DNA from: Nautiliaceae bacterium
Lineage (GTDB): Bacteria; Campylobacterota; Campylobacteria; Campylobacterales; Nautiliaceae
Direction of reading: 5' to 3'
NCBI GenBank assembly: GCA_027062285.1
Contig: JAMOTL010000107.1
Coordinates: 1-64,000 of the forward strand
DNA: 64,000 bases
Each line of letters begins with the position of its first letter. Within the stretch, counting starts at the first letter, position 1. Below, piece after piece: positions 28,201 through 43,222 of this stretch. Both the position numbers and the translations under genes were made by a program. Below the pieces are notes generated by a model that saw only the letters and a program-made list of their open reading frames with translations, had not been told where the DNA came from and did no database searches.

Positions 28201-28250
28201 GACCTCTGATCTTTTATTTGTCTTTAAATATTTTTAAAAAGGCACAATTT

Positions 28251-30326
28251 TTGAGAAGTTTAAAAAAAGAATTTTTCATTAGTATAGTTTTGGGATTTTT
28301 AGGATTTTTTTTAGTTATATGGGTTTTATATTCATTTATAAGCAATGTGATAATTAATCAAGCTCTTAGTAAAGCCAGACTCGAAAGCAAGACGATTTAT
28401 CATTTTAGAAATTATTTGGCGCAGGTTTCTCCTCATATTCAAAGAAAAGACTTAAATGTTTCATATTTCGCATGTACTCCAGCATATACTGTAAATCAGG
28501 TAGCAAAACTTTTAAGAGATAAAGAGCATTTATATATAAGACAAGTATCCGATAAATGGAGAAATCCAAATGATAAACCTAATAAATATGAACTAAAGGC
28601 AATTAAATTTTTTAAAACTCATAAAAATGCTTATGAATTTTGGGAAATTCACGATTTTTCTGATACAAGCTCGGATTCTAAGGCAAAACATATTTTTTAC
28701 GCCTATCCTTTAAAAGTAAAAAAATCCTGTCTCGTATGTCATGGCGATCCTAAAAAGGATGTACCAAAAGATATATACGAACATATTGTAAAAACATACG
28801 GAGTTAGTGCTTTTAACTATAAAGTCGGAGATGTTAGAGGAATTATTTCTATTAAAATACCTTATAATGAGATAAATGAGAAAATAGATTTTATTTTTCT
28901 TGTAGTATCGGTACTCATCGGGATTATATTTATAAGCGGATTTTTTATATTTTATAATATTAATAAAAATATCACTGAGGATATTGATAGATTATTAAAT
29001 TATTTTAGCAGTTTAATTTCAAAAGGCAAATACAAGACCTTAAAAGAAAAAATGAATTTTAAAGAATTTGAAACTTTAAAAAATCAGATTAATTCTACAG
29101 TAAATTTGATTAAAAAATATCAAAAAGAACTGTTTAAAAAACTTTATTTTAATTTCCTTACTAATTTACACAACAGAGCAAAATTTATGGAATATTTATC
29201 TAAAAGCAAAAATAGAACCATTATTCTTTTAAACATAGATAAATTCAGAGAAGTCAACAGCTTTTTCGGGGTGGAAGTAGGAGATAAATTAATAAAAGAA
29301 ATTTCAAAAAGACTGAAAGAACTTAAAAAAGAGTTTGGATTTTTACTTTATCATTTGGATATAGACGAATTTGCTATAATCCCTTCTAAAAATTTAACGG
29401 ATAAACAGTTAGAAGAGTATATAAAAAAAATTTTGATGTTGTTAGAGGCCCCTTATAAAATTGATAATAATGAAATAGTCATAAGATTCAGGGTGGGAGT
29501 TAGCAAGAAAGATTATCTTGATGCAGAAGTCGCTTTGGCGTTGGCTAAAGAAATAAAAAAAGATATAGTGTTTGAAGAAAAAATACAAAACATAAAAAAA
29601 GATTACGGAAACAATATAAAATGGTTAAAACAGATAAAAAGCGCTATAGAAAATCTCAGAATCGTACCTTTTTATCAGCCTATAGTAGATAAAAATGGTC
29701 ATGTGGTTAAATATGAAGCCTTAGTAAGAATGTATGACGGGGAAGGTAATATCGTTCCACCGAATAAATTTTTGGAAGTTGCTAAAAAATCCAGACTTTA
29801 TAATGAAATTACTAAAATTATCATTGATAAAGTTATAAAAAAAATCAGAGAAAAAGATATAAAAGTTTCCGTTAATATTTCATTGGAGGATATTGAAGAT
29901 GAAAATATGAGAGAATATATTATCAACAGAGTGAAAAATTTTGAAAAAAGGGAAAATTTAACATTTGAAATAGTTGAAAACGAAGATGTCAGAGAATCTG
30001 AAATTTTAAAAGAATTTTTACATACTTTACAGGAAATGGGAGTGGAGATTTATATCGATGATTTTGGAAGCGGATATGCTAATTTTGATTATTTGCTAAA
30101 GCTTAATCCTAACGGTGTAAAAATTGACGGAAGTTTGATTAAAGACATCTTACATAATAAAAATAATGAAATTATTGTAAAAACAATTATCAATTTTGCT
30201 AAAGAAACAGGTATTAAAACTGTGGCGGAATTTGTAGAAAGCAAAGAGATTTTTGATAAACTTAAACAAATGGGAGTTGATTATTTCCAAGGATATTATT
30301 TTTCACCACCCAAAAAAGAGATATAA
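28251..30326 (+). CDS. DUF3365 (Tll0287-like, c-type heme) - degenerate GGDEF - EAL membrane protein
   Basis: TM helix, heme motif CLVCH at 28728-28742, GGDEF site degenerate (DIDEF), EAL motifs [39 protein letters not shown]; track start 28218, TTG at 28251 better placed after AAAAAGG. Confidence 0.85.
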
Positions 30327-30334
30327 GGAGTAAA

Positions 30335-30919
30335 ATGAAAAGAATCGTAATAGCAAGCGGAAATAAGGGAAAAATCAAAGAAATAAAAGAATTATTAAAA
30401 GATTTTGAAATTGTACCGTATACGGAATTAATAAAACCTGTTGAAATAGAAGAAACCGGAAAAACTTTTAAGGAAAATGCGGTAATTAAGGCTGAAAGTA
30501 TTCGAAAATATCTTCCTGATGAAATAATTTTAGCGGATGACAGCGGAATAAGTGTTCCGATTTTGGGAGGGATTCCCGGGATATATTCAGCCAGGTTTGC
30601 CGGAGAAGAAGCGAGTGATAAAGATAATTTATATAAATTAATTAACGAATTAAAAGCAAATAATATTAATAAAACACCTGCTTACTATACTGCTGCTATT
30701 GCTTTGGCAACTCCTTATGGAGTATTTACCACTCATGGATTCATGAGAGGATATGTAATAGATGAAGCAAGAGGAGATAAGGGTTTTGGTTATGATCCTA
30801 TGTTTATCCCAAAAGGTTTTAATAAAACTTTAGGCGAACTTGATGAAAATATAAAAAAAGAGATTTCCCACAGAAGTAAAGCTCTAAATCTTGCTAAAAT
30901 TATTTTAAAAACTATTTAA
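30335..30919 (+). CDS. rdgB: XTP/dITP diphosphatase (RdgB/HAM1)
   Basis: [62 protein letters not shown]. Confidence 0.95.
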
Positions 30920-31886
30920 GTTTTTTAAATTCTTCAAATGAAGGTTTTTTTTCTCCGCTTTTTCTTTTGATGCCGAAATACTTTTCAGCTTCGTTAAAAT
31001 ATCCTACGTGATTTGGTACGTCAATATAATGAAATAAATTTATTCCTAAAAGATCGGCGGAATTTTTAAAAAGCGGAAGAAGTTTTACGAAATCTTTTAT
31101 AACTTCTTTTTGTAATTCTTCATTTTTGTAGCTGGATATAGCAAGATAAGCTAAAAAAGTCGGTTTTTTGAATTTTTTATGAAGATAAGTGGCAAAAGCT
31201 AAAGCTCTTAGAGGAGTGTTTAAAATTTGTTCTTTTGTGTTTCTGGTAAGTGCTCTCATTTCTTGAAAAGCAATAAAATCAGATAGTTTTGCACTATAAT
31301 TAAGAGAAGGTAAATTCAAATCCCAGTTTAAAGTATCCCATATAAGATTATAATCTCCGAAATCGCCCAGACATATTCCTATTTTTGCTTTCGGATTTTT
31401 TTCTTTTATTATTAAAATCGAATGCGCTTGTAATATATCAAAAAGTCTGGAAGCATTCATCTTGTTTTCATTGTATTCCGGATTTAGGATAACAATTTTC
31501 GGTCCTTTTATCTTTGTGAGAAAATCCGAAAATCTTTTAAGATCTTTTAGATATTCTTTTTTGTGTTTTTTTACATATTTCGGTGAAATATCATCTCCGA
31601 ACCAATAAAAAATAAAAATCGGTATGTATCCTCTTTGTATCGCTTTATTTATTGTTATAGCGGGATACCAATCTTGTTTCCAGCCTTTAGTTATCCACAT
31701 AGAAACCGCATTTACATTAGGAACCTCGCGTTTAAGAAATTGAAATATGGGTTTTCTTTGTATATAAGGGCAGTTTTTTTCAAAAGAAGCCCCGTATTTT
31801 GAATTACAAGCGCTGAAACCTCCCACTCCGATAATAAACGCAAAACTGTAAGTGGCGGCAATGAGTAATAAACTAATTAATTTCAT
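30912..31886 (-). CDS. Secreted TIM-barrel glycoside-hydrolase-like protein
   Basis: Signal peptide [19 protein letters not shown]-like pattern ([22 protein letters not shown]); last gene of EPS operon, overlapping deacetylase. Confidence 0.5.
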
Positions 31887-33708
31887 CGTATTTAATTATC
31901 AGTGTAGTTGATGAGTTCGGTTTTAGCTCGTTTATTTTATAATCGCTGTATCTTCTTAAAAAGTTATCGTTTATTTTTTTTATCTTAACTGATGTATTTT
32001 CGGAAATGACGCTTTTTATTTTTATATTAGGCCAGTAAAGTCTGAATTTTAGATTTTTTACGGATTTATTGTTTTTATTATAAATTGTTAAAACTATAGT
32101 GTTACCTATTATTGTATCGGAATATGAGATATTCGGCAGTAATCTTGCTCTTTCGTTTAACTCTATCCCTTTTAGAGGTTTAATATCAGGGCGCGTTTTA
32201 AGATATTCGAAATATTTTTTAATAATATCGAGATTTGACTTATAACTTAGAAGATGCGTGTGAACGCTTAGAGTATAAAGAGCGTTTAGGGATGTAAGCA
32301 TTTCAGTTTCCTGAATTATTTTATTTAAAATCTTTTTTTTATTCCAGTTAAGGTTAATCAAATAAATATAATCATCGGTTCCGTGTCTAGGAATAGTGAT
32401 AAGACCCTTATAAAGTTCTTTAGGAAGTAAAAAAGGCTTAACTTTTTCCATAACATATTGATACCCGCTTTTTTTAAGCCAGTATTCCATAATATTATCT
32501 ATTTCTTCTCTTGGAGGTCTAAATCCGTAAATTTTTTTACCGGTAATTTTTTCTAAAATTTCTTTTGAACCCAAAATTTCTTTTTTTACTTTTTCTTCCG
32601 AAGTTCCCATTATTTTTGTATGAGAATAGCTGTGAGAGCCTATTTCAATATTTGGAAAAGATGAAGCTTCTTTTGTCATTTGCGGGTATTGTTCCGCAAG
32701 AGAAGCAACACAAAAAAGAGTTGTGTTTATGTTATATTCTTTTGCTAATTTTGAAAAGCGGATCATGTTTTCATATTTATATTCCGTATCTTCCGAAATA
32801 AATATAGCTTTATCTGTATCTATGTAAGGAAAAGTGGCAATTGTGATATCGTTTTTGACGAAATCGACAATATTTCCGAACAGTTTATTAAATTGTGTTT
32901 CTTTCATATCTAAAAATACATAAGAAGGGACCGAAAAGTAAAACCATTTACCTTTTCCCAAAAAACCATGCCAGGCAATTCCGGATTCTTTTACATTCAA
33001 AAGTCTGTTTTCAAGAAAAGGTGTGGATGTCATCTCCCAGTTTGTAATGATAAAATCAGGAATAAAAGGCGATTTGAAAAGAGGCAAAATATCATTTCCA
33101 TAAAGTGTAAGATCTTCTCTTTTGGCATTTATATCGGATTTGATAAGCGGAGATAAGACACGAGGTATATAAAAACTTGTTTCATCTTTTGAGATTGATT
33201 CGGATATGAATTTTAATCCGGTTAGATTTTCTATAAATTTAGGACCTTGAAATATGTTTTTGTCGCTAAAATAACCGAAATGATAATTAAATATTAATGT
33301 TCCACCGTTCTTAATGAAAGATAATATTTTTTTATAAGTACTTTTTGATATTTTATATGTATCAAGAGCAATAACTATTGACTTTTGCGGTATTGATAAT
33401 AAATTTTTTTCTGTGATTTGTTTGATATTATAATGTTCTTTTTGTAGTCTTTTTGTAAATTGAATCAGTTTATCGGTATAAATATCGTAATTTCCTACCG
33501 AATTCGATAAATACTCCATTGTTTCCTGAGAAGATAAAATATATACGGTTTTTTCACAAGACGGAGAGGCAAAAGTAAAGCTCAGATTTTTTTTAGGGAA
33601 TATTTGATATAAAATATATCCTGAAATTATTACCATAAGAAAAACAAAAATTAAAACGGGAATAAAAGATATTTCTTTTTTTTTACTATTCAAAATAGAT
33701 ATATTCAT
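31873..33708 (-). CDS. Polysaccharide deacetylase (NodB-like) with N-terminal GATase/flavodoxin-like region and C-terminal beta-rich domain
   Basis: N-terminal TM; ISEDTEYKYENM, GSHSYSHTKI (HxxxH), GFRPPREE NodB-type motifs. Confidence 0.75.
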   Translation of the reverse strand: MNISILNSKKKEISFIPVLIFVFLMVIISGYILYQIFPKKNLSFTFASPSCEKTVYILSSQETMEYLSNSVGNYDIYTDKLIQFTKRLQKEHYNIKQITEKNLLSIPQKSIVIALDTYKISKSTYKKILSFIKNGGTLIFNYHFGYFSDKNIFQGPKFIENLTGLKFISESISKDETSFYIPRVLSPLIKSDINAKREDLTLYGNDILPLFKSPFIPDFIITNWEMTSTPFLENRLLNVKESGIAWHGFLGKGKWFYFSVPSYVFLDMKETQFNKLFGNIVDFVKNDITIATFPYIDTDKAIFISEDTEYKYENMIRFSKLAKEYNINTTLFCVASLAEQYPQMTKEASSFPNIEIGSHSYSHTKIMGTSEEKVKKEILGSKEILEKITGKKIYGFRPPREEIDNIMEYWLKKSGYQYVMEKVKPFLLPKELYKGLITIPRHGTDDYIYLINLNWNKKKILNKIIQETEMLTSLNALYTLSVHTHLLSYKSNLDIIKKYFEYLKTRPDIKPLKGIELNERARLLPNISYSDTIIGNTIVLTIYNKNNKSVKNLKFRLYWPNIKIKSVISENTSVKIKKINDNFLRRYSDYKINELKPNSSTTLIIKYDEIN

Positions 33709-33859
33709 CTCCCATGTCCTTTAAAATTTCCTCATAAGAGCTATACTTGGGTTTATTTTTTTCTCTTGTTTTGTATAAAAAGTAAGCGATTATACCAAAT
33801 ATAAGAGTAATAAAAGTAATCACAAGTATCAATACCGATAAAAAAGCTAAAATGTTCAT
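33686..33859 (-). CDS. Small single-pass membrane protein (57 aa), absent from supplied ORF track
   Basis: MNILAFLSVLILVITFITLIFGIIAYFLYKTREKNKPKYSSYEEILKDMGDEYIYFE*; ATGA overlap with the GT2 stop and overlap with the deacetylase start. Confidence 0.8.
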   Translation of the reverse strand: MNILAFLSVLILVITFITLIFGIIAYFLYKTREKNKPKYSSYEEILKDMGDEYIYFE

Positions 33860-35169
33860 AGATTCCCTTTTCTTTCAAGTTTTCCCCAACTCATTTCTAT
33901 TCCGAACCACTCTTCAAATGTTGATAAAATTTTAGCAATATTTATAAATTCTATAAAAAACAACCTGTAAAATACGGCGTAAAATACAAGAGAAAGACTC
34001 TCTCCTGTTACCAGAACACAATATAATGCCCCTGCCATATCAAGAATCGTAAACATCACCCACCAGAAAAATATTAATATACTCACTCCTGAAATTATAG
34101 AAAGATAAATTATAAACAAATTGGTCCATATGTCCATAAAAGGCCAAAAAACCGCTTCAAATAACATATACCACATTGTAAAAGAAGCTGCTGGTTTTTT
34201 TCTAAAATGCCATAAAAGATATTTGTGTTTTTTTATAGCTTGTAAAATGCCTCTTGTCCATCTATATCTTTGCTTAATCAAATCAAGAATATGTTCGGGA
34301 GCTTCGGTATAAGCTACGGCGTCGGATTCAAAATCTATTTTATAACCTTTTGTGATAAGTTTTAAAGTAACGTCACAGTCTTCGGCAAAAGTATCGTCAT
34401 CGTAAAGTCCTACGTCATAAAGGGCGTCTTTTCTAAACATTCCTATGGGACCTGGTATTATATTTACAAGTTTTAAAAAAGCCTGACCGTTTCTTACCAT
34501 ATTCAGCCCTTCGACATATTCCAGGGCTTGAAGTTTTGTAATTAAGTTATTTTGATTACTCACATATACTGATCCCGCAACAGCCGCTATTTCGGGGTTT
34601 ATGAAGTATCCCGCCATCAGTTCCACTGCGTTTTTATCAAGTTTCGAATCTGCATCCACCACCATAATCAGTTCACCGGTTGCGTGTTTTATTCCGTAAT
34701 TTATGGCGTTTGCTTTTCCGCTGTTTGGTTTTGTAAGTACTTTTAGTGATTTCGTATCGGATTCGAATTCATAATTTTTTGCTATTTGGTATGTCAAATC
34801 GGTAGAACCGTCATCCACTACTATTATTTCGATATTAGGATGAGTTTGCGCTATTAAAGAAGGGAGGGATTTTGGTAAAACCTTTTCTTCGTTATAGGCT
34901 GGAACGATTATGCTTACTTTGAAATTCGTTTTTACTCTTTTGTTTTTTTCTTCATCTGAAGTTTTCATGATAAGTTTGATTATCGAAAAATAAAGTAGAA
35001 ACATATATCGTGATATTATGATTAAAGTAAAAAATAAAACAATAACAACTCCTGTTTTTATAAAAATATTTTGGATGTGTTGAAATTTATCGTAAAAAAT
35101 ATATAAAAGAGAGCCTAAAATCAACACAATAAGAATGTTTAATAAAATTAATATAAATTGTTTCACCAT
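33856..35169 (-). CDS. Processive family 2 glycosyltransferase (PgaC/IcaA-like)
   Basis: N-terminal TMs, SIIVPAYNEEKVLPKSLPSLI, IEIIVVDDGSTD, MVVDADSKLD, FAEDCDVTLKL, QRYRWTRG, C-terminal TMs. Confidence 0.85.
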   Translation of the reverse strand: MVKQFILILLNILIVLILGSLLYIFYDKFQHIQNIFIKTGVVIVLFFTLIIISRYMFLLYFSIIKLIMKTSDEEKNKRVKTNFKVSIIVPAYNEEKVLPKSLPSLIAQTHPNIEIIVVDDGSTDLTYQIAKNYEFESDTKSLKVLTKPNSGKANAINYGIKHATGELIMVVDADSKLDKNAVELMAGYFINPEIAAVAGSVYVSNQNNLITKLQALEYVEGLNMVRNGQAFLKLVNIIPGPIGMFRKDALYDVGLYDDDTFAEDCDVTLKLITKGYKIDFESDAVAYTEAPEHILDLIKQRYRWTRGILQAIKKHKYLLWHFRKKPAASFTMWYMLFEAVFWPFMDIWTNLFIIYLSIISGVSILIFFWWVMFTILDMAGALYCVLVTGESLSLVFYAVFYRLFFIEFINIAKILSTFEEWFGIEMSWGKLERKGNL

Positions 35170-38100
35170 ATAACCTTTGCTGAAAGTTCACACTCTAAAC
35201 TTCTGTAATTTGATCCCGGAGTGTTTGTAGTGGCTGAATTACTAAATTCACATCCTGCTTTTGAAAAAATGTTTTTTTGATTGTCGTATGTCAGCCATGC
35301 TTCGAGTTTATAAACAAAGGCTTTATCAAAGAAGCTGTACCCCATACCTCCTTTTCCTCTTGCGTAAAAATATCTGGATAATCTTTTTTTCGCTTTTAAA
35401 CCGATAATATTGGTATCGGTTTTATCAGGTGAGTAATAACAATCGGTTTGTTTTGAATTGAATTGATACCAACCTGAAAAATAAACGGAAAAAGGTTGGT
35501 CGTTGATAGAAAATTCATAAAAATCATAATCTACCTGAGGAGTTATGACATTATTTGAATCGTCTACAAGTTCATAAGCTATAGACCACCAAAGTTCTCT
35601 TGAATGTGTTATTTCTTTATATCTGGTAAGTTCGGCTTTTATTCTGGTATGTTTGCTTGAACAGATGCTTCTTCTAGAATATACCATATTATGTTTATTC
35701 AAATTAAATGTAATACCGGGAAAAAGATTATAATATGTAAAATCCCATCCTATAGTGGAGGTTTTTCCGCTGTTATCATTAAAAACATCAAATAAAAAAG
35801 GGTTTTTTTCAAATCCGAGTCCGTAATAAAGCCCTTTTTTATTTGATGAAGCAACATTTAAAGAGTAATTTCTTACGAATCCGAATAAATAAAAATTATC
35901 TTTTATATGTTTTGCAATTTTTAGATATTCCGTCCACATAGTGGTTTGTTGATTGTCTTCAAAATAATTTATTTTACCGAAAATTTTCCAGTTATAATGT
36001 TGAGTTGAAGATAAGACGTCATTTTTGTTTAAAACATTCTTTTTTGAAAGATTTGTTTTTTTTAAATACACATAATTTAACACCTCGGATTCTTTCATTA
36101 CCTCTTTATTTTGATTAGGAACTAAAAGAGGATAATTTGGGTTAGGAGGAGGAGATTTTTTTGCTTGTTTTTTTTTAAGATTATATTCCGGTTTGATTTT
36201 TGATTGTTTTTCTAAAGGGGTTAGGATTATTTTTTTGTTTTCCTCTTTATTAATTAATTCGAGATTTCTTTTTATGTATTTTTCTAGAGAATTTTCAGGA
36301 TTATAAGGAACATACTCTCCTCTCGTCCATTTTTCATCTATAATTACGCATTTGTTATTTTCACACTTTAGAGTAAGTGTTTTGTATCCTTTGTCTTTTC
36401 TGATTTTAGATGCGTATACCTGATAAAATTTTACTTTATATATATTGTCTTTATGATATATTAAAACCGGGTCGTATATTCCTACACTTATAAAAGAAGC
36501 TCTTTTAAAGATTGATTGTTTTCTAAGTCTCCAATAAAGATTTTTTGAATATTTTTTGTCATAAAATCGGGCATATTTGTTTATATCCATACTTTCCCAT
36601 GCTTTTTTCCAATCTTCAAGAAATTTTTTAATAAATTCAGGTACCGGTTTAGGCACTTCATTTAGAAGTTTTTTATAAATTTCTTTTGCTTTTTTAATTT
36701 TTCCGGCTCTTTGAAGATTATAGGCATAATGATATTCGATAAGAGGTGTTTTTTTCCACCACATTAAAAGATAAAACTCTCCGGCCGCTTTTTCAGGTTC
36801 TCCTGCTTGTTCTAGAGCAAATGCGTATCTTTCTCTTACTTTGTAGTCGTTAGGTTGTAAAAAGAGATATTCTTTATAATATTCTATCGCACTTTTATAA
36901 AGATCAGAAAAATAAGCCCTATCTCCCAAAACCTGTATCTGTTGACTTTTATTATTAAAATATTCGTCAATAGTTGCGGCCGTGCTGGAGGTTACGAATC
37001 TAGGATTTATTTTAAGAATTTTGGCTTTTAAAATTAAAGCATCCGTATAATTCGGGTATTTTTTCAAAAGATCATTGACTACGCTTAAAGCTTCTTTATT
37101 AAATCCGTTCCAGTAATATCTTAAAGCAAGTTCATAATATGCTTCTTTTGTATTTTTATAGTTAGCGTAATATTCCCAATAGCTGAAACCTTTATAATAA
37201 TTTTTTTGTGCCAGATAGATGTCTCCGAGAGTTTTATATATTTCTAAATTTTCAGGATGTTTTTTTAAGTATTTTTCATAATAATAGGCAGATTTATTAT
37301 AATCTCCCAAAATATAATAGTAATCGGCAAGTTTTAAAATATAATCTTCTCTTCCAGGATGGTTTCTAAGAAGGATGAGATATTTTTTTATCAGAGGTTT
37401 TACGTTACCGTTTAATACCATCAGTTCTTCTTTTACCTCTTCATCTTTAGGATTTATTTTATAAAGTTCTTGAAAGATTGCTTTTGCTTTTTTCTTATCT
37501 CCTTTCCATAAATATACGTATCCAAGCATTTTTTTCGCTTCGTATTTTTGTTCTTGATTGCCGTGGGAATAAACATCTCCCAAATAGATTATGGCTTTGT
37601 CAAATTTTCCCTGCCATGCCAATATTTTTCCAAGAAGAAGTTTTGCGTTTAAATCGTTTATATTTTTAAATTGAGATAAAAACTTAAGCGCTTTTTCGTT
37701 GTTTCCGCTCCAGCTTAAAAGCTGAGCGTAAAATACTTTTGCCTGAGTATTGTGAGGATGTGTTTTTATATATTTTTCCACTATTTCAAATGCTTTTTTT
37801 TGATCTATTTGAAACATTGCTATAGCAAGTTTTTTCATGTTTTCAAAACTTGGATTGGCATTATATTCTTTTTTAAGTTCTTCTATGTGTTTTAATTGTA
37901 AATCTAAAAGTTTTTTTTCATATTCTCCGGCTATTTTAGGGGATATTCTTTTTAATGAAAGGATTAATTTTTTTACCTGGTCGAATTCTCCAAGATAATA
38001 GTAAATATCAATAAGCTTTTTTGCGTATTCCAAATTTCCCGTAGTTTGATATAAAAGCTGAAAATATTTTTTAGCTTTTTTGTAATTGCCTTTATAATAT

Positions 38101-38612
38101 AAATCATAAGCTAATATTTCGTAATAGTCTAAACTTTTTTTATTTTTAACGTAAGAAAGGACATTTATTGATAAATCATAATTACCTTCCCACATAGCCA
38201 CTCTTGCAACTTTTAAAAGTTCACTATCGGTTAGGCCGTCTTTTTTTAGTTTTTTTAAAGCCGTATAGAATTTTAATAATTCTTTATATTGTTCTTTTTC
38301 ATATAGGCTGTTAATGACATTTTTAGGAGTTTTATATTTTGAAATATATTTTTGATAAATAATCCTGTATCGAATATTTTCTTTTAATTGTTTTGCATAT
38401 TTATTTTTAGGATCGATTTTTAACACTTCATTGACATATTTTTCCGCTTCTTTTATTTTTCCTTTTTCGAATAAATAACTCGCAATAACGAGTCTATTTT
38501 TTAAATCATGAGGATTTTTCTTTACTTTTGATATAAGTTCGTTGATATCTAATTCCATGGCAAAAGCCATTATTAAACTTAATAATAAAAACATTACTTT
38601 TTTCATTTGCAA
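35163..38612 (-). CDS. TPR-rich outer membrane protein with NTF2-like domain and C-terminal beta-barrel (PgaA/PelB-like EPS export candidate)
   Basis: Signal peptide, many TPRs, NTF2-like segment (FLEDWKKAWESMDINKYARFYDKKYSKNLYWRLRKQSIFKRASFISVGI), C-terminal amphipathic strands ending in W. Confidence 0.7.
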   Translation of the reverse strand: MQMKKVMFLLLSLIMAFAMELDINELISKVKKNPHDLKNRLVIASYLFEKGKIKEAEKYVNEVLKIDPKNKYAKQLKENIRYRIIYQKYISKYKTPKNVINSLYEKEQYKELLKFYTALKKLKKDGLTDSELLKVARVAMWEGNYDLSINVLSYVKNKKSLDYYEILAYDLYYKGNYKKAKKYFQLLYQTTGNLEYAKKLIDIYYYLGEFDQVKKLILSLKRISPKIAGEYEKKLLDLQLKHIEELKKEYNANPSFENMKKLAIAMFQIDQKKAFEIVEKYIKTHPHNTQAKVFYAQLLSWSGNNEKALKFLSQFKNINDLNAKLLLGKILAWQGKFDKAIIYLGDVYSHGNQEQKYEAKKMLGYVYLWKGDKKKAKAIFQELYKINPKDEEVKEELMVLNGNVKPLIKKYLILLRNHPGREDYILKLADYYYILGDYNKSAYYYEKYLKKHPENLEIYKTLGDIYLAQKNYYKGFSYWEYYANYKNTKEAYYELALRYYWNGFNKEALSVVNDLLKKYPNYTDALILKAKILKINPRFVTSSTAATIDEYFNNKSQQIQVLGDRAYFSDLYKSAIEYYKEYLFLQPNDYKVRERYAFALEQAGEPEKAAGEFYLLMWWKKTPLIEYHYAYNLQRAGKIKKAKEIYKKLLNEVPKPVPEFIKKFLEDWKKAWESMDINKYARFYDKKYSKNLYWRLRKQSIFKRASFISVGIYDPVLIYHKDNIYKVKFYQVYASKIRKDKGYKTLTLKCENNKCVIIDEKWTRGEYVPYNPENSLEKYIKRNLELINKEENKKIILTPLEKQSKIKPEYNLKKKQAKKSPPPNPNYPLLVPNQNKEVMKESEVLNYVYLKKTNLSKKNVLNKNDVLSSTQHYNWKIFGKINYFEDNQQTTMWTEYLKIAKHIKDNFYLFGFVRNYSLNVASSNKKGLYYGLGFEKNPFLFDVFNDNSGKTSTIGWDFTYYNLFPGITFNLNKHNMVYSRRSICSSKHTRIKAELTRYKEITHSRELWWSIAYELVDDSNNVITPQVDYDFYEFSINDQPFSVYFSGWYQFNSKQTDCYYSPDKTDTNIIGLKAKKRLSRYFYARGKGGMGYSFFDKAFVYKLEAWLTYDNQKNIFSKAGCEFSNSATTNTPGSNYRSLECELSAKVIW

Positions 38613-39970
38613 ATCTCCTCTTTTTTAATTGGATAATCCGGAGCTTCGTAAGCGAATATAATTTCGAATTCCTTCGGATCGTTAAAGAATTTTTTCATCA
38701 CATAAGGAAGATGAACGATTCTTGTATTTAGCAATATTAAAATATAAGTGTCGTTTTTATCTTTAAAAATAAAATCGTTTTTTCTTAAATATTCTTTTTT
38801 TATCTCTTTTTTGCTTCTAAGTTTCAATACCGAAAAGAAGAATTTTTCTTTATATAAGATTTCAAGTATCTGGCAGAGCATATTTTTATTGGTAATGTTT
38901 CTGTTTGATGTAATTTTAGCGAGGGTATAAGTATAAAAATTCACCCCTACTATTTTTTCTATTTCAGCTATTAATTCAAGAAGATTAAAATTATAAGGGA
39001 AAACTTCGTAACATCCGTTAGAAATTGCTGCTATTTTATCATCACCTCTTATATAATTTTCATTGGTTATATAAATAAGTCTGGATTTTAATTTATTTTC
39101 TTTTATTGTATGACAAACGCTAAAGTCCATCTCTTTATCAAAAGGATTATAAATAATTATATCGGGTTCGGTTAGTACTTTATTTATAATTTCCGAAGTG
39201 TGAGAAGCAAAATCCACATTGAAAATATCTCTGTTGAATACATATCCGAGCGTTTTTTGAAGTTCTTTGTTTTTTGTTATAATTAATATGCTGTATTTGT
39301 CTTTTTTCGGTGCGAGATCGGTTGATGTGGAAGTATTTTCATCGGAATAAGGTTCCAATATTATTTCGTTTTCTTTTATTAAAAATTTGTATTTATCAGG
39401 AAAGGTTGGGAAAAGTGAGTTTTTCACCTGAATCAATCTGTATCGCTCAAGTTTTTCTATATAGATGTTTATATCCGAAAAATTTTCTATATTTTCAATA
39501 GTCCCTTTGTTTGTTTCCATAGGAGCGGCAGTAAAGAAAGTTTTGAAATCTTTTGAATCTTTTAAATTAATTATTTCTTCCATAAAAAATTTTAAATGCC
39601 CTGTTTCGTGATGTTCGAAAAAGAGGTCGAATCTATGAAAAATAACGCTGTCAGGATTAATTTTTTCGATTGCTCTATATATGTCTTTTAATAAAAAATC
39701 TATTCCGAATTTGGCTTTAAATTCCGGCCATTCTTCTTTAAGTGATAAAAGTTCTATGTTTTTCAAAACCGGTTCGATATTTTTTATGTGTTGTTGTTTT
39801 ATCGCTTCTAATCTTTTTTTCATAATAGTTTTATTGTATGTTGAAAAAACTAAAATTTTGTCTTTGTTTTCTCTGGCGCATTCATAAATGCTGAATGTGA
39901 ACTTTCCGACCTTTTTTTCACCTTCTATTAAAATGACTTCCGATTGTCTTATGGATTCTAAAAATGTCAT
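38603..39970 (-). CDS. Degenerate RecA/KaiC-like - REC-like - GGDEF/GIL-like protein (BcsE-like architecture)
   Basis: N-terminal VILIEGEKKVGKFTFSIYECAR degenerate P-loop; SILIITKNKELQKTLGYVF REC-like with PDIIIYNPFD (N at phospho-Asp position); C-terminal RKND (RxxD) preceding a strand. Confidence 0.45.
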   Translation of the reverse strand: MTFLESIRQSEVILIEGEKKVGKFTFSIYECARENKDKILVFSTYNKTIMKKRLEAIKQQHIKNIEPVLKNIELLSLKEEWPEFKAKFGIDFLLKDIYRAIEKINPDSVIFHRFDLFFEHHETGHLKFFMEEIINLKDSKDFKTFFTAAPMETNKGTIENIENFSDINIYIEKLERYRLIQVKNSLFPTFPDKYKFLIKENEIILEPYSDENTSTSTDLAPKKDKYSILIITKNKELQKTLGYVFNRDIFNVDFASHTSEIINKVLTEPDIIIYNPFDKEMDFSVCHTIKENKLKSRLIYITNENYIRGDDKIAAISNGCYEVFPYNFNLLELIAEIEKIVGVNFYTYTLAKITSNRNITNKNMLCQILEILYKEKFFFSVLKLRSKKEIKKEYLRKNDFIFKDKNDTYILILLNTRIVHLPYVMKKFFNDPKEFEIIFAYEAPDYPIKKEEICK

Positions 39971-41838
39971 TGCTTGTTCCTTAATTTATTTTTGAAAAGT
40001 TCTATTAATAATTCGTTTTTCTCTTCTTTAAAAATATTCAATAATGTTTTTAACACTTCTTTATCATGAGGATTTTTTTCAAGTACTTTAAATAAATATT
40101 GTTTGGCTTTTTTATAATCGTTTAGTTTATAATATATTAATCCTGATAATTTCTCCGTATTATAATCATATTTAATTTTTTGGAGATATTTAAGAGACTT
40201 TTTATACTCTCTTTTTTCATAATATGCTTTTGCCGTTAAATAATTTATTTCATATGAATTACTGAACTTTTCAGCTTTGCTTAATATTTTTAAAGCGTTG
40301 TCGTAATCTTTTTTTATTATTAAAATTTTGGCGTATAATATATAAGGTTTATCCGATGCTGTTTTTATGGTTCTTAAAGATTTTTTTACATAAATTTCCG
40401 CTAAGTCTATGTTTGAGTTGTTAAATTCCTGTAACGCTTTATAAAAATTTTTCAAAAACAATAATTTATTTATATAAGGCATTGAGTAAAGATTTTCATT
40501 TACACTTTGTAAAGAAAAATACCACAGTCCGTCATCAAGGTCACTGAGTAAAATTTGTCTTTTTGTGGTTACGTATTTTAATATAGGGGCTTTATCGAAT
40601 TTTTTGGATTTTGAAAGGGTTAAAACGAATTTTTTATAAGGACTTTCCCAGTTTATTATTATATTGTGTTCCGGAGTTTTATAAAGATCAATATTTTGAG
40701 GGGGATTTGGAAGAGGAGTTTTTATAAGTTTATCTCCTTTTACGATTAATCCTTGGTTTTTTTTTACCTCCTGATTTTTTGCTTTTATTTTTCCTTTGTA
40801 GACGCTTGTAGCTACAGAATCTTTTTTTACGGTTTCAAATTCTGTCCCAATATTTTTTAAAATCGTTTTTCCAGCTATTACTTTTACCGGCTGGTGGTTT
40901 GTATTTATGGAAATATCTGCGTTTTCTAAAAAAAATTCGGTTTTAGTTTTCGTATTAAACAGATTTTTTCTGGCGATGATTTTTATTTTATCGTTTATTT
41001 GGGCTTTTGCTATTATTCCGTTTTCGAATTTATATAAAACTATGTCATCCGAAATTATTTTTTGTATTTGTTGAGGGAAAAAACAGTAATAATAATCAAG
41101 TCCGATAAAAATAGTCAGAATGAATCCTGATAAGGCGAGGGCCAATCGTCTGAGTTTAATAGATTTGGCGACTTTTGGTAAATAAATATAAAATTTTGTT
41201 CCTCTTCCTTTTTCACTATCTATCGCAATAGCGCCTCCAAGTGATTCAATAACGTTTTTTGACATAGCAAGACCGATGCCCGTACCTTCTTTTTCATCAG
41301 TGGTATAAAATTTTTTAAATATATATTTTTTTTCTTCTTCGCTTATTCCTATACCCGTATCTTTTATAGTGAGAATTACTCCTTTTTTTTCAGGAGCAAA
41401 TGAAATTATGACTCTTCCGTTTTGATGATTATATTTAATACTGTTGTGAATTATATTTAAAAGAGCTTTTTTCAGCCATTTTTTATTGGCTTTTATTATA
41501 ATTTCTTCTTGCGGGGATTCGACGGTTACTAAAATATTTTTTTTTTGGATGTCAATTTCAAGTTCTTTTATTATTTCGTGAATAAACTGAGGTAAGTTTA
41601 TTTTTTCATTTTTTAAAAACTTTTCATGTTTATATTTTTCAAGGTCTAAGTAGTCGTTTAGCATATCAATTGTTTTATCGAGGGTAACCAATACGCTTTG
41701 TATGAGAGAATGTTTTTGTTCTTCGTTGATATTGGGATTTAATAAAAGGCTTAGAGAGAATTTTATACTTCCTAATTTATTCTTAATGTCATGAAAATAA
41801 ACTTGTAAAAAAGGTTTTTTATTTCGAAAAAGTTTCAT
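39967..41838 (-). CDS. Histidine kinase with N-terminal HisKA/HATPase, TM, then FecR-like and TPR regions
   Basis: YFHDIKNKLGSIKFSLSLL H-box, NIIHNSIKYN, DTGIGIS, GTGIGLAMSKNVIESLGG; TM LRRLALALSGFILTIFIGLDYYY; FecR-like GTEFETVKKDSVATSVYKGKIKAKN; C-terminal TPRs. Confidence 0.85.
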   Translation of the reverse strand: MKLFRNKKPFLQVYFHDIKNKLGSIKFSLSLLLNPNINEEQKHSLIQSVLVTLDKTIDMLNDYLDLEKYKHEKFLKNEKINLPQFIHEIIKELEIDIQKKNILVTVESPQEEIIIKANKKWLKKALLNIIHNSIKYNHQNGRVIISFAPEKKGVILTIKDTGIGISEEEKKYIFKKFYTTDEKEGTGIGLAMSKNVIESLGGAIAIDSEKGRGTKFYIYLPKVAKSIKLRRLALALSGFILTIFIGLDYYYCFFPQQIQKIISDDIVLYKFENGIIAKAQINDKIKIIARKNLFNTKTKTEFFLENADISINTNHQPVKVIAGKTILKNIGTEFETVKKDSVATSVYKGKIKAKNQEVKKNQGLIVKGDKLIKTPLPNPPQNIDLYKTPEHNIIINWESPYKKFVLTLSKSKKFDKAPILKYVTTKRQILLSDLDDGLWYFSLQSVNENLYSMPYINKLLFLKNFYKALQEFNNSNIDLAEIYVKKSLRTIKTASDKPYILYAKILIIKKDYDNALKILSKAEKFSNSYEINYLTAKAYYEKREYKKSLKYLQKIKYDYNTEKLSGLIYYKLNDYKKAKQYLFKVLEKNPHDKEVLKTLLNIFKEEKNELLIELFKNKLRNKQ

Positions 41839-41909
41839 CGTCCCCCATTTTTATTTCATCCTTTTATTTTAACAAAATTTTATTATCTTAAAATGTCATT
41901 TCAATGACT

Positions 41910-42548
41910 TTAATCAATAATGTAACCCAAATCCCTTTTTGTTTTTATTATATTTTTATTTCCCATTTTTTCTCTTAATCTTTTAACAAGCACGTTTAGG
42001 GTGTTAAGAGATACGGGAGTTTCCCAGATATAGTCTATTAATGTTGAATTTGAAATAACTTTTCCTCTGTTATTTAACAACAGTTCAAGCAGTTGAGACT
42101 CTTTTTTTGTCAGCTCTATTTCTTTTGAATCTTTTATGATTGATTTTTTATTAAAATCATAGTAAATGTCGTCTGTTAACTTAATTTGCGAATTTCTTTC
42201 TTTAAATAATTTTCTAATTCTTATCGACAGTTCTTCATAATCAAAAGGTTTTTTTATAAAATCCTCGGCTCCTAAATTAAATGCTTTTTTTATATTGTTT
42301 ATTTCGGTGTTTCCTGAAATTACCATTATTTTCACATAAGAAAGTTCGGGATGTCTTTTTAATTCTTCCAAAAAATTTCCGTCCGGAAGAGATATGTCGG
42401 AAATAATGAGCTCGGGCATAATTTTTTTATAATTGTCAAAAAAACTGCCTAATTCTGAAAAGGAGTGGACTTCATAACCTTCGGATCTTAAAAACATTCC
42501 GAGGGCTATATTCAAACTCTCTTCGTCTTCAATTAATACTATTTTCAT
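41910..42548 (-). CDS. OmpR-family response regulator
   Basis: MKIVLIEDEESLNIALGMFL, IISDISLPDG, KKPFDYEEL, winged-helix KKESQLLELLLNNRGKVIS; track start 42593 revised to ATG 42548. Confidence 0.92.
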   Translation of the reverse strand: MKIVLIEDEESLNIALGMFLRSEGYEVHSFSELGSFFDNYKKIMPELIISDISLPDGNFLEELKRHPELSYVKIMVISGNTEINNIKKAFNLGAEDFIKKPFDYEELSIRIRKLFKERNSQIKLTDDIYYDFNKKSIIKDSKEIELTKKESQLLELLLNNRGKVISNSTLIDYIWETPVSLNTLNVLVKRLREKMGNKNIIKTKRDLGYIID

Positions 42549-42562
42549 TTGTCTCCTTTTTT

Positions 42563-43222
42563 TTAAAGCAGGATTTTGCTTGTAATCGCGCAAGCAGCTG
42601 TTTCACTTCTGAGTATGAAAGCCTTAAGTCTTATTTTCTCTTTAAAAAATTTTCTTTCTTCTTCGCTAAATCCGCCTTCCGGTCCAATGAATACCGGTTT
42701 ATTAAAAGTCTCAGGGCATTTTATTAACTTTCCATCAAAATCCAAAGCTACAAAATTAGGATATTTTTCAAAAAATTCTTTGGAAGAATTTAAAATTTCT
42801 ATCTCCATTAAATCACTTCTGCCGCATTGCTGAGAAGAGTTTATTAAAATTTTAGTTAATCTGTCAAGCTTTAGTTTAAAATTTTTCTGAGAATAGTCAC
42901 AATAAACGAATGTTATTTTACTTACTCCCATTTCATTTAAAGCGGGCAGTGTTTTTTCAATGTTTTTAGGATCTATAATACACCAACCGAGATGAAAAAA
43001 AGCGGAAGGTTTATTGGGTCTTAAAATTTTATCGGTGAGTTTAAGAACTGCTTCTTTTTTATTTATGTCAATAATTTCATAAACATAAATAAAATCATCC
43101 TTTAAATTTCTGATATTGATTTTTTCGTTTTTTTTGATTCTTCTGACTTTAAAAAGATATTTATGTTCATCTCCTGTCAAGATTATCTGGGAAGATGGAT
43201 TGGGATGATAAAGAAATTGCAT
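42563..43222 (-). CDS. rsmE: 16S rRNA (uracil1498-N3)-methyltransferase RsmE
   Basis: TGDEHKYLFKVRRIKKNEKINI, FIGPEGGFSEEERKFF, LRSETAACA. Confidence 0.93.
   Translation of the reverse strand: MQFLYHPNPSSQIILTGDEHKYLFKVRRIKKNEKINIRNLKDDFIYVYEIIDINKKEAVLKLTDKILRPNKPSAFFHLGWCIIDPKNIEKTLPALNEMGVSKITFVYCDYSQKNFKLKLDRLTKILINSSQQCGRSDLMEIEILNSSKEFFEKYPNFVALDFDGKLIKCPETFNKPVFIGPEGGFSEEERKFFKEKIRLKAFILRSETAACAITSKILL

Follow-up and report, generated by a model that had tools for sequence, protein, structure and literature searches.

A conserved, predicted exopolysaccharide locus of Campylobacterota with a BcsE-like receptor outside cellulose secretion

The type II Bcs system, through which E. coli secretes cellulose, includes as an accessory BcsE, a receptor of cyclic di-GMP (c-di-GMP) that combines a RecA-like domain with degenerate REC and GGDEF domains and recruits BcsRQ. 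The composite c-di-GMP site of BcsE is formed by R306ATD and R415TGD on the REC and GGDEF domains, and the tail of its small single-transmembrane (TM) partner BcsF completes a beta-sheet of BcsE (PMC7439463, PMC11470070). Here we describe a locus in a 64,000-nucleotide (nt) stretch of a Nautiliaceae bacterium (contig JAMOTL010000107.1, positions 1 to 64,000; hereafter the window), in which a BcsE-like receptor is encoded together with a synthase related to PgaC, the glycosyltransferase of the E. coli Pga system for poly-N-acetylglucosamine (PNAG). The locus is a real, conserved exopolysaccharide (EPS) locus, and what surprises in it is a BcsE-type receptor outside cellulose secretion. Its core comprises five, usually six, genes, encoding the BcsE-like receptor, an exporter, the PgaC-like family 2 glycosyltransferase (GT2), a 57-aa TM protein (TM57), a CE4 deacetylase and, in most cases, a hydrolase. 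Fold, motifs, conservation and gene order were established by computation, and we consider it likely that the core block is a c-di-GMP-gated, synthase-dependent EPS machine, in which a BcsE-type receptor tethered by TM57 serves the PgaC-like synthase. A literature search, with subscription papers and preprints outside its reach, yielded no account of such a locus and no BcsE-like protein associated with another polymer, BcsE being described only in cellulose secretion.

The block resembles the Bcs system in its receptor, which has a RecA-like domain, degenerate REC and GGDEF domains and a pair of RxxD motifs, and in the small single-TM partner encoded nearby (TM57 as against BcsF), but it is devoid of BcsA, BcsB, BcsC, BcsQ, BcsR, BcsG and BcsZ, and its synthase is PgaC-like and carries no PilZ domain. 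With the Pga system it shares a PgaC-related GT2, a deacetylase and a TPR outer-membrane exporter, whereas relatives of PgaB and PgaD are absent from the block, a BcsE-like receptor is added, and the deacetylase is not fused to the hydrolase, both coming from other families. As in the Pel system of P. aeruginosa, there are a PelA-like deacetylase domain content, a large TPR-barrel exporter and a separate degenerate-GGDEF c-di-GMP receptor; however, the only glycosyltransferase is the GT2, no PelF/PelG-type synthase or flippase is present in the block, the receptor has the layout of BcsE and not of PelD, and the hydrolase was not detected as a member of the PelA family. Since the 11 E. coli Pga and Bcs proteins compared matched the block proteins only piecemeal, no single characterised system explains the cluster. 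To this extent the proposal of the first-pass annotation, a possible undescribed EPS type mixing Pga and Pel parts, stands, but no sequence relationship to PgaB, PgaD or the PgaB/PelA hydrolases was detected.

The receptor was modelled with AF2 from five sequences (pLDDT 82.5, pTM 0.52) and the model, which shows the three-domain fold of BcsE (RecA-like, degenerate REC, degenerate GGDEF), was compared with 350,542 PDB chains by Foldseek. E. coli BcsE took the first five ranks (E 2.4e-16 to 1.7e-13), with matches of about 500 alignment columns covering the whole length, and KaiC chains came after them. Alignment of 14 full-length orthologues revealed only 18 invariant columns, including R308, D311, R396 and D399 of the two RxxD motifs; the Walker A GK of the RecA-like part is also invariant. 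The REC part matches solved response regulators, and its phospho-acceptor position holds no conserved Asp. The window protein reads RKND-FIFKD-KNDTY, where the second RxxD lies five residues before the decayed GGDEF position, which is the spacing between I-site and GGDEF in active cyclases such as PleD. Among the 11 E. coli proteins, only BcsE gave the receptor a long colinear alignment by hhalign (318 columns), with both RxxD pairs in register, though at a probability of only 2.7%, and the predicted homology with BcsE therefore rests on fold and motifs. The structure search and the two invariant motifs thus bear out the degenerate BcsE-like receptor proposed at first. Because the genome has 32 GGDEF-domain matches, the c-di-GMP signal is available; its two PilZ domains are both on contigs other than that of the block. 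Both RxxD motifs are also kept in two stand-alone REC-GGDEF-like relatives of 266-269 aa (8603-9403 of L103 and 5726-6535 of L104; L and G numbers are our own handles), away from recognised EPS clusters. Two genes downstream of the block, at 28218-30326 of the window, lies a gene for a GGDEF-EAL protein whose N-terminal sensor contains CxxCH and may bind haem, and a homologue of this gene occupies the same place in L029 and L031.

The GT2 aligned with PgaC at an hhalign probability of 99.95% (E 1.6e-37), as had been expected from the first inspection, and is clearly PgaC-related by sequence, although its score against the PgaC/IcaA family model (195 bits) is that of a homologue below the cut-off of 422 bits. 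Its catalytic residues D120, D172/D174, E263-D264 and Q300-R301-Y302-R303-W304 are invariant. TM57, encoded directly after GT2 in all core loci, has one TM helix, a basic cytosolic tail and a conserved Y-[ILV]-[FY]-F-E-like strand at the C-terminus. It possesses one TM segment against the two of PgaD and gave no match to PgaD by hhalign; in layout it appears, by analogy, closer to BcsF.

Conservation of the neighbourhood, also anticipated, was surveyed in 397 Campylobacterota genomes. Profile searches with the full-length receptor (E < 1e-100) and the deacetylase (E < 1e-200) retrieved the same 11 genomes from four families, always with both genes in one block. The hydrolase forms part of the block in nine of these and does not adjoin it in the other two (L101 and L102); close relatives of it (E < 1e-80) were found in nine genomes, including the window's own, in all of which the order receptor, exporter, GT2, TM57, deacetylase, hydrolase is kept while the surroundings differ. 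The core order recurs in 10 Campylobacterota genomes besides the window's own, as well as in a metagenome-assembled genome (MAG) labelled Methylococcales, which is more than chance would give. A contig search also placed the block in Campylobacterales MAGs and a Sulfuricurvum MAG, some MAG loci ending at contig ends, whereas a search for related loci with the 455-aa receptor as a single query found none and one with the hydrolase alignment did. The Methylococcales-labelled MAG carries the whole block, and among the copies in a plasmid collection those of Gammaproteobacteria are nearest to the adjoining RND pump, which lends weak support to the label. In Firestonebacteria MAGs the TM protein, deacetylase and hydrolase genes stand together, and in L056 the next genes encode two ATPases of the KaiC type, a TPR protein and a GT2. 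In L034 the deacetylase and hydrolase genes are separated by an additional HupE/UreJ-like gene; the exporter ORF of L035 is, at 729 aa, much shorter than in other loci. Genes for HupE/UreJ-like membrane proteins lie beside the hydrolase in L034, L052, L053 and L054, once inside the operon.

In the deacetylase, the CE4 domain (PF01522, E 3e-20, residues 300-419) retains the metal motifs His-x3-His (H359/H363) and His-x-His (H483/H485), and motif 1, TFDD in CE4, reads S-E-D-T-E in all Campylobacterota members. For the alpha/beta part, a match to the beta-galactosidase trimerisation domain was obtained (E 6e-4); the alpha/beta domain of PelA is known to resemble ThuA, PhzE and IFT52 (PMC12022489). 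With its alpha/beta, CE4 and C-terminal parts, the protein is PelA-like in domain content. The hydrolase model is a confident TIM barrel (pLDDT 89.6, pTM 0.88) with GH5, GH10, GH26 and GH53 structures as Foldseek neighbours and conserved acidic residues E137, E209, D98, D175 and D289. The two proteins had been regarded as a split PgaB/PelA-like pair, which is at most an analogy of domain content: hhalign detected no similarity of either to E. coli PgaB, where CE4 and GH153 are fused, PelA structures were not among the PDB sequence matches of the deacetylase, and no PgaB or PelA hydrolase structure appeared in the PDB sequence matches or the top-50 fold list of the hydrolase. The GH114 model found no significant match in the genome. 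Distant relatives of the hydrolase domain in other Campylobacterota are fused to CBM2 or GH114, or stand beside GT2-DUF3131 clusters; L041 and L048 contain a second candidate EPS cluster, in which a GT2, a DUF3131 protein and a hydrolase-like domain are neighbours.

The exporter is of PelB size and has Pfam TPRs and an NTF2-like domain (PF24125, E 1e-11; 7o21_A, E 9e-10). It is split at an A10 tract into a TPR-NTF2 and a barrel ORF in L034 (near 9995), L036 (near 4005) and L052 (near 5625); in all three a -1 shift would rejoin the two ORFs, and no signal peptide is present in the barrel part. Phase variation, transcriptional slippage and assembly error are all possible causes. Selection on A9-A10 tracts in the exporter linker was rejected, as 7 were observed against 8.7 expected upon synonymous resampling of 10 intact genes.

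Several observations weigh against a BcsE-type machine. The profile comparison of receptor and BcsE is by itself not significant, and the Pfam BcsE model PF10995 had no match in the whole genome at E<=10, for which reasons we call the protein BcsE-like and not BcsE. Foldseek TM-scores against BcsE are low, about 0.28, because the protein is flexible and multidomain and its domain arrangement is uncertain in the model. Alignment of TM57 with BcsF reached an hhalign probability of only 0.7%, so that layout is what links the two; the C-terminal domain of the exporter found no solved match in a PDB profile search, and its barrel is presumed; and a Glu (E306) stands at the usual position of the CE4 catalytic Asp, which leaves the activity of the deacetylase uncertain. 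It might be argued that the 455-aa protein acts as a signalling ATPase of the KaiC type, present in the operon by chance and not sensing c-di-GMP, given that KaiC chains come next in the fold list, that its Walker A GK is invariant and that one orthologue matches Pfam KaiC. We regard this as improbable, as BcsE precedes KaiC in that list and aligns along the full length of the protein, and as both RxxD motifs are invariant.

A divergent PNAG system, with the GT2 as a poly-GlcNAc synthase, the CE4 protein and the hydrolase in place of PgaB, the TPR protein as PgaA and TM57 as PgaD, would account for PgaC being the closest to the GT2 among the characterised proteins compared, and for the deacetylase and TPR exporter of the block. 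Although a little more plausible than a KaiC-like ATPase, it too is unlikely, in view of the shortfall of the GT2 from the family cut-off, the lack of detectable PgaB similarity in deacetylase and hydrolase, the single TM segment of TM57 and its failure to match PgaD, and an E. coli pga operon without a BcsE-type gene. Least credible is a Pel-type system whose synthase has been exchanged, where PelA would be split into deacetylase and hydrolase and PelD replaced by the BcsE-like receptor beside a PelB-like exporter. The deacetylase layout is indeed like that of PelA (PMC12022489) and the exporter has the size of PelB, but the block lacks genes for a PelF-like synthase and a PelG-like flippase, its synthase belongs to GT2 where that of Pel belongs to GT4, and PelA is missing from both the PDB sequence matches and the top-50 fold list of the hydrolase.

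Under the favoured reading of a c-di-GMP-gated machine with a tethered BcsE-type receptor, the GT2 would, judging from its family, polymerise a sugar nucleotide, probably an N-acetylhexosamine, and drive its product across the inner membrane. Once in the periplasm, the chain would be deacetylated by the anchored CE4 protein and trimmed or bound by the secreted TIM-barrel protein, and the TPR-NTF2-barrel protein would lead it across the outer membrane. The cytosolic receptor, whose fold and motifs were computed, may clamp c-di-GMP between its two RxxD motifs. Tethered by the BcsF-like TM57, it would then activate or assemble a synthase that has neither a PilZ domain nor a PgaD partner. In some lineages, an attached histidine kinase (HK) and response regulator (RR) may add transcriptional control.

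Table 1. Coordinates of the predicted features in the window.
Feature	Position	Strand	Remarks
Hyd, secreted TIM-barrel hydrolase-like protein, 324 aa	30912-31886	-	no Pfam family; AF2 model and Foldseek
Deac, predicted membrane-anchored deacetylase: TM anchor, GATase-like alpha/beta domain, CE4, C-terminal extension	31873-33708	-	
TM57, 57-aa single-TM protein, BcsF-like layout	33686-33859	-	
GT2 synthase, processive, PgaC-like, without PilZ domain	33856-35169	-	
Exporter, predicted outer-membrane: signal peptide, TPR superhelix, Csd6-type NTF2-like domain, presumed C-terminal barrel ending in W	ORF 35163-38612; possibly 35163-38606	-	
NTF2-like domain of exporter, residues 661-761	36330-36632	-	PF24125; 7o21_A
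BcsE-like receptor, 455 aa: KaiC/RecA-like NTPase domain, degenerate REC, degenerate GGDEF	38603-39970	-	
Receptor RxxD motif 1, R308-D311, REC-like domain	39038-39049	-	cf. BcsE R306ATD
Receptor RxxD motif 2, R396-D399, I-site	38774-38785	-	cf. BcsE R415TGD
HK, accessory histidine kinase: N-terminal cytosolic HisKA/HATPase, one TM segment, FecR-like and TPR C-terminus	39967-41838	-	Pfam
RR, accessory OmpR-type response regulator	ORF 41910-42593; likely 41910-42548	-	Pfam REC and Trans_reg_C
rsmE	42563-43222	-	full-length member of RsmE rRNA methyltransferase family

Recomputed coordinates and junctions (Table 1) agreed throughout with the nine minus-strand open reading frames (ORFs) first annotated, which run head to tail with overlaps of 4-23 nt at six successive junctions and a gap of 71 nt between HK and RR. 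The exporter may start at ATG 38606 rather than TTG 38612. Since RR orthologues begin at residue 16, RR probably starts at ATG 42548, which leaves 14 nt to rsmE and not an overlap. Two sets of genes counted as parts of the operon lie outside the core. The two-component pair is accessory and lineage-specific, being linked in the window's own family and in G053 (in L049 the kinase only, at a contig cut) and absent or different in the remaining loci. The gene rsmE was rejected as a member of the system and is a housekeeping neighbour, because it lies upstream in the window's own family only and encodes an ordinary RsmE rRNA methyltransferase. The HK has an unusual reversed layout, with the catalytic part N-terminal and the FecR-like and TPR parts after one TM segment; in the orthologue of L032 the FecR domain scores above the cut-off.

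On balance we favour, with somewhat less assurance than for the machine itself, an undescribed class of synthase-dependent EPS secretion, whose non-cellulose, PgaC-like synthase is controlled by a c-di-GMP module of the BcsE/BcsF type. Such a module would exceed the enterobacterial cellulose system in portability and perhaps in age. The BcsE-type receptor may then be a portable part common to different polymer machines. Should it indeed govern the PgaC-like synthase, 'activation by proxy' by means of a tethered c-di-GMP receptor would become a general principle, and one that a compact system free of BcsQ, BcsR and PilZ domains would make approachable; a concrete matrix-polymer locus would also be named for those Campylobacterota that have small genomes and many GGDEF genes.

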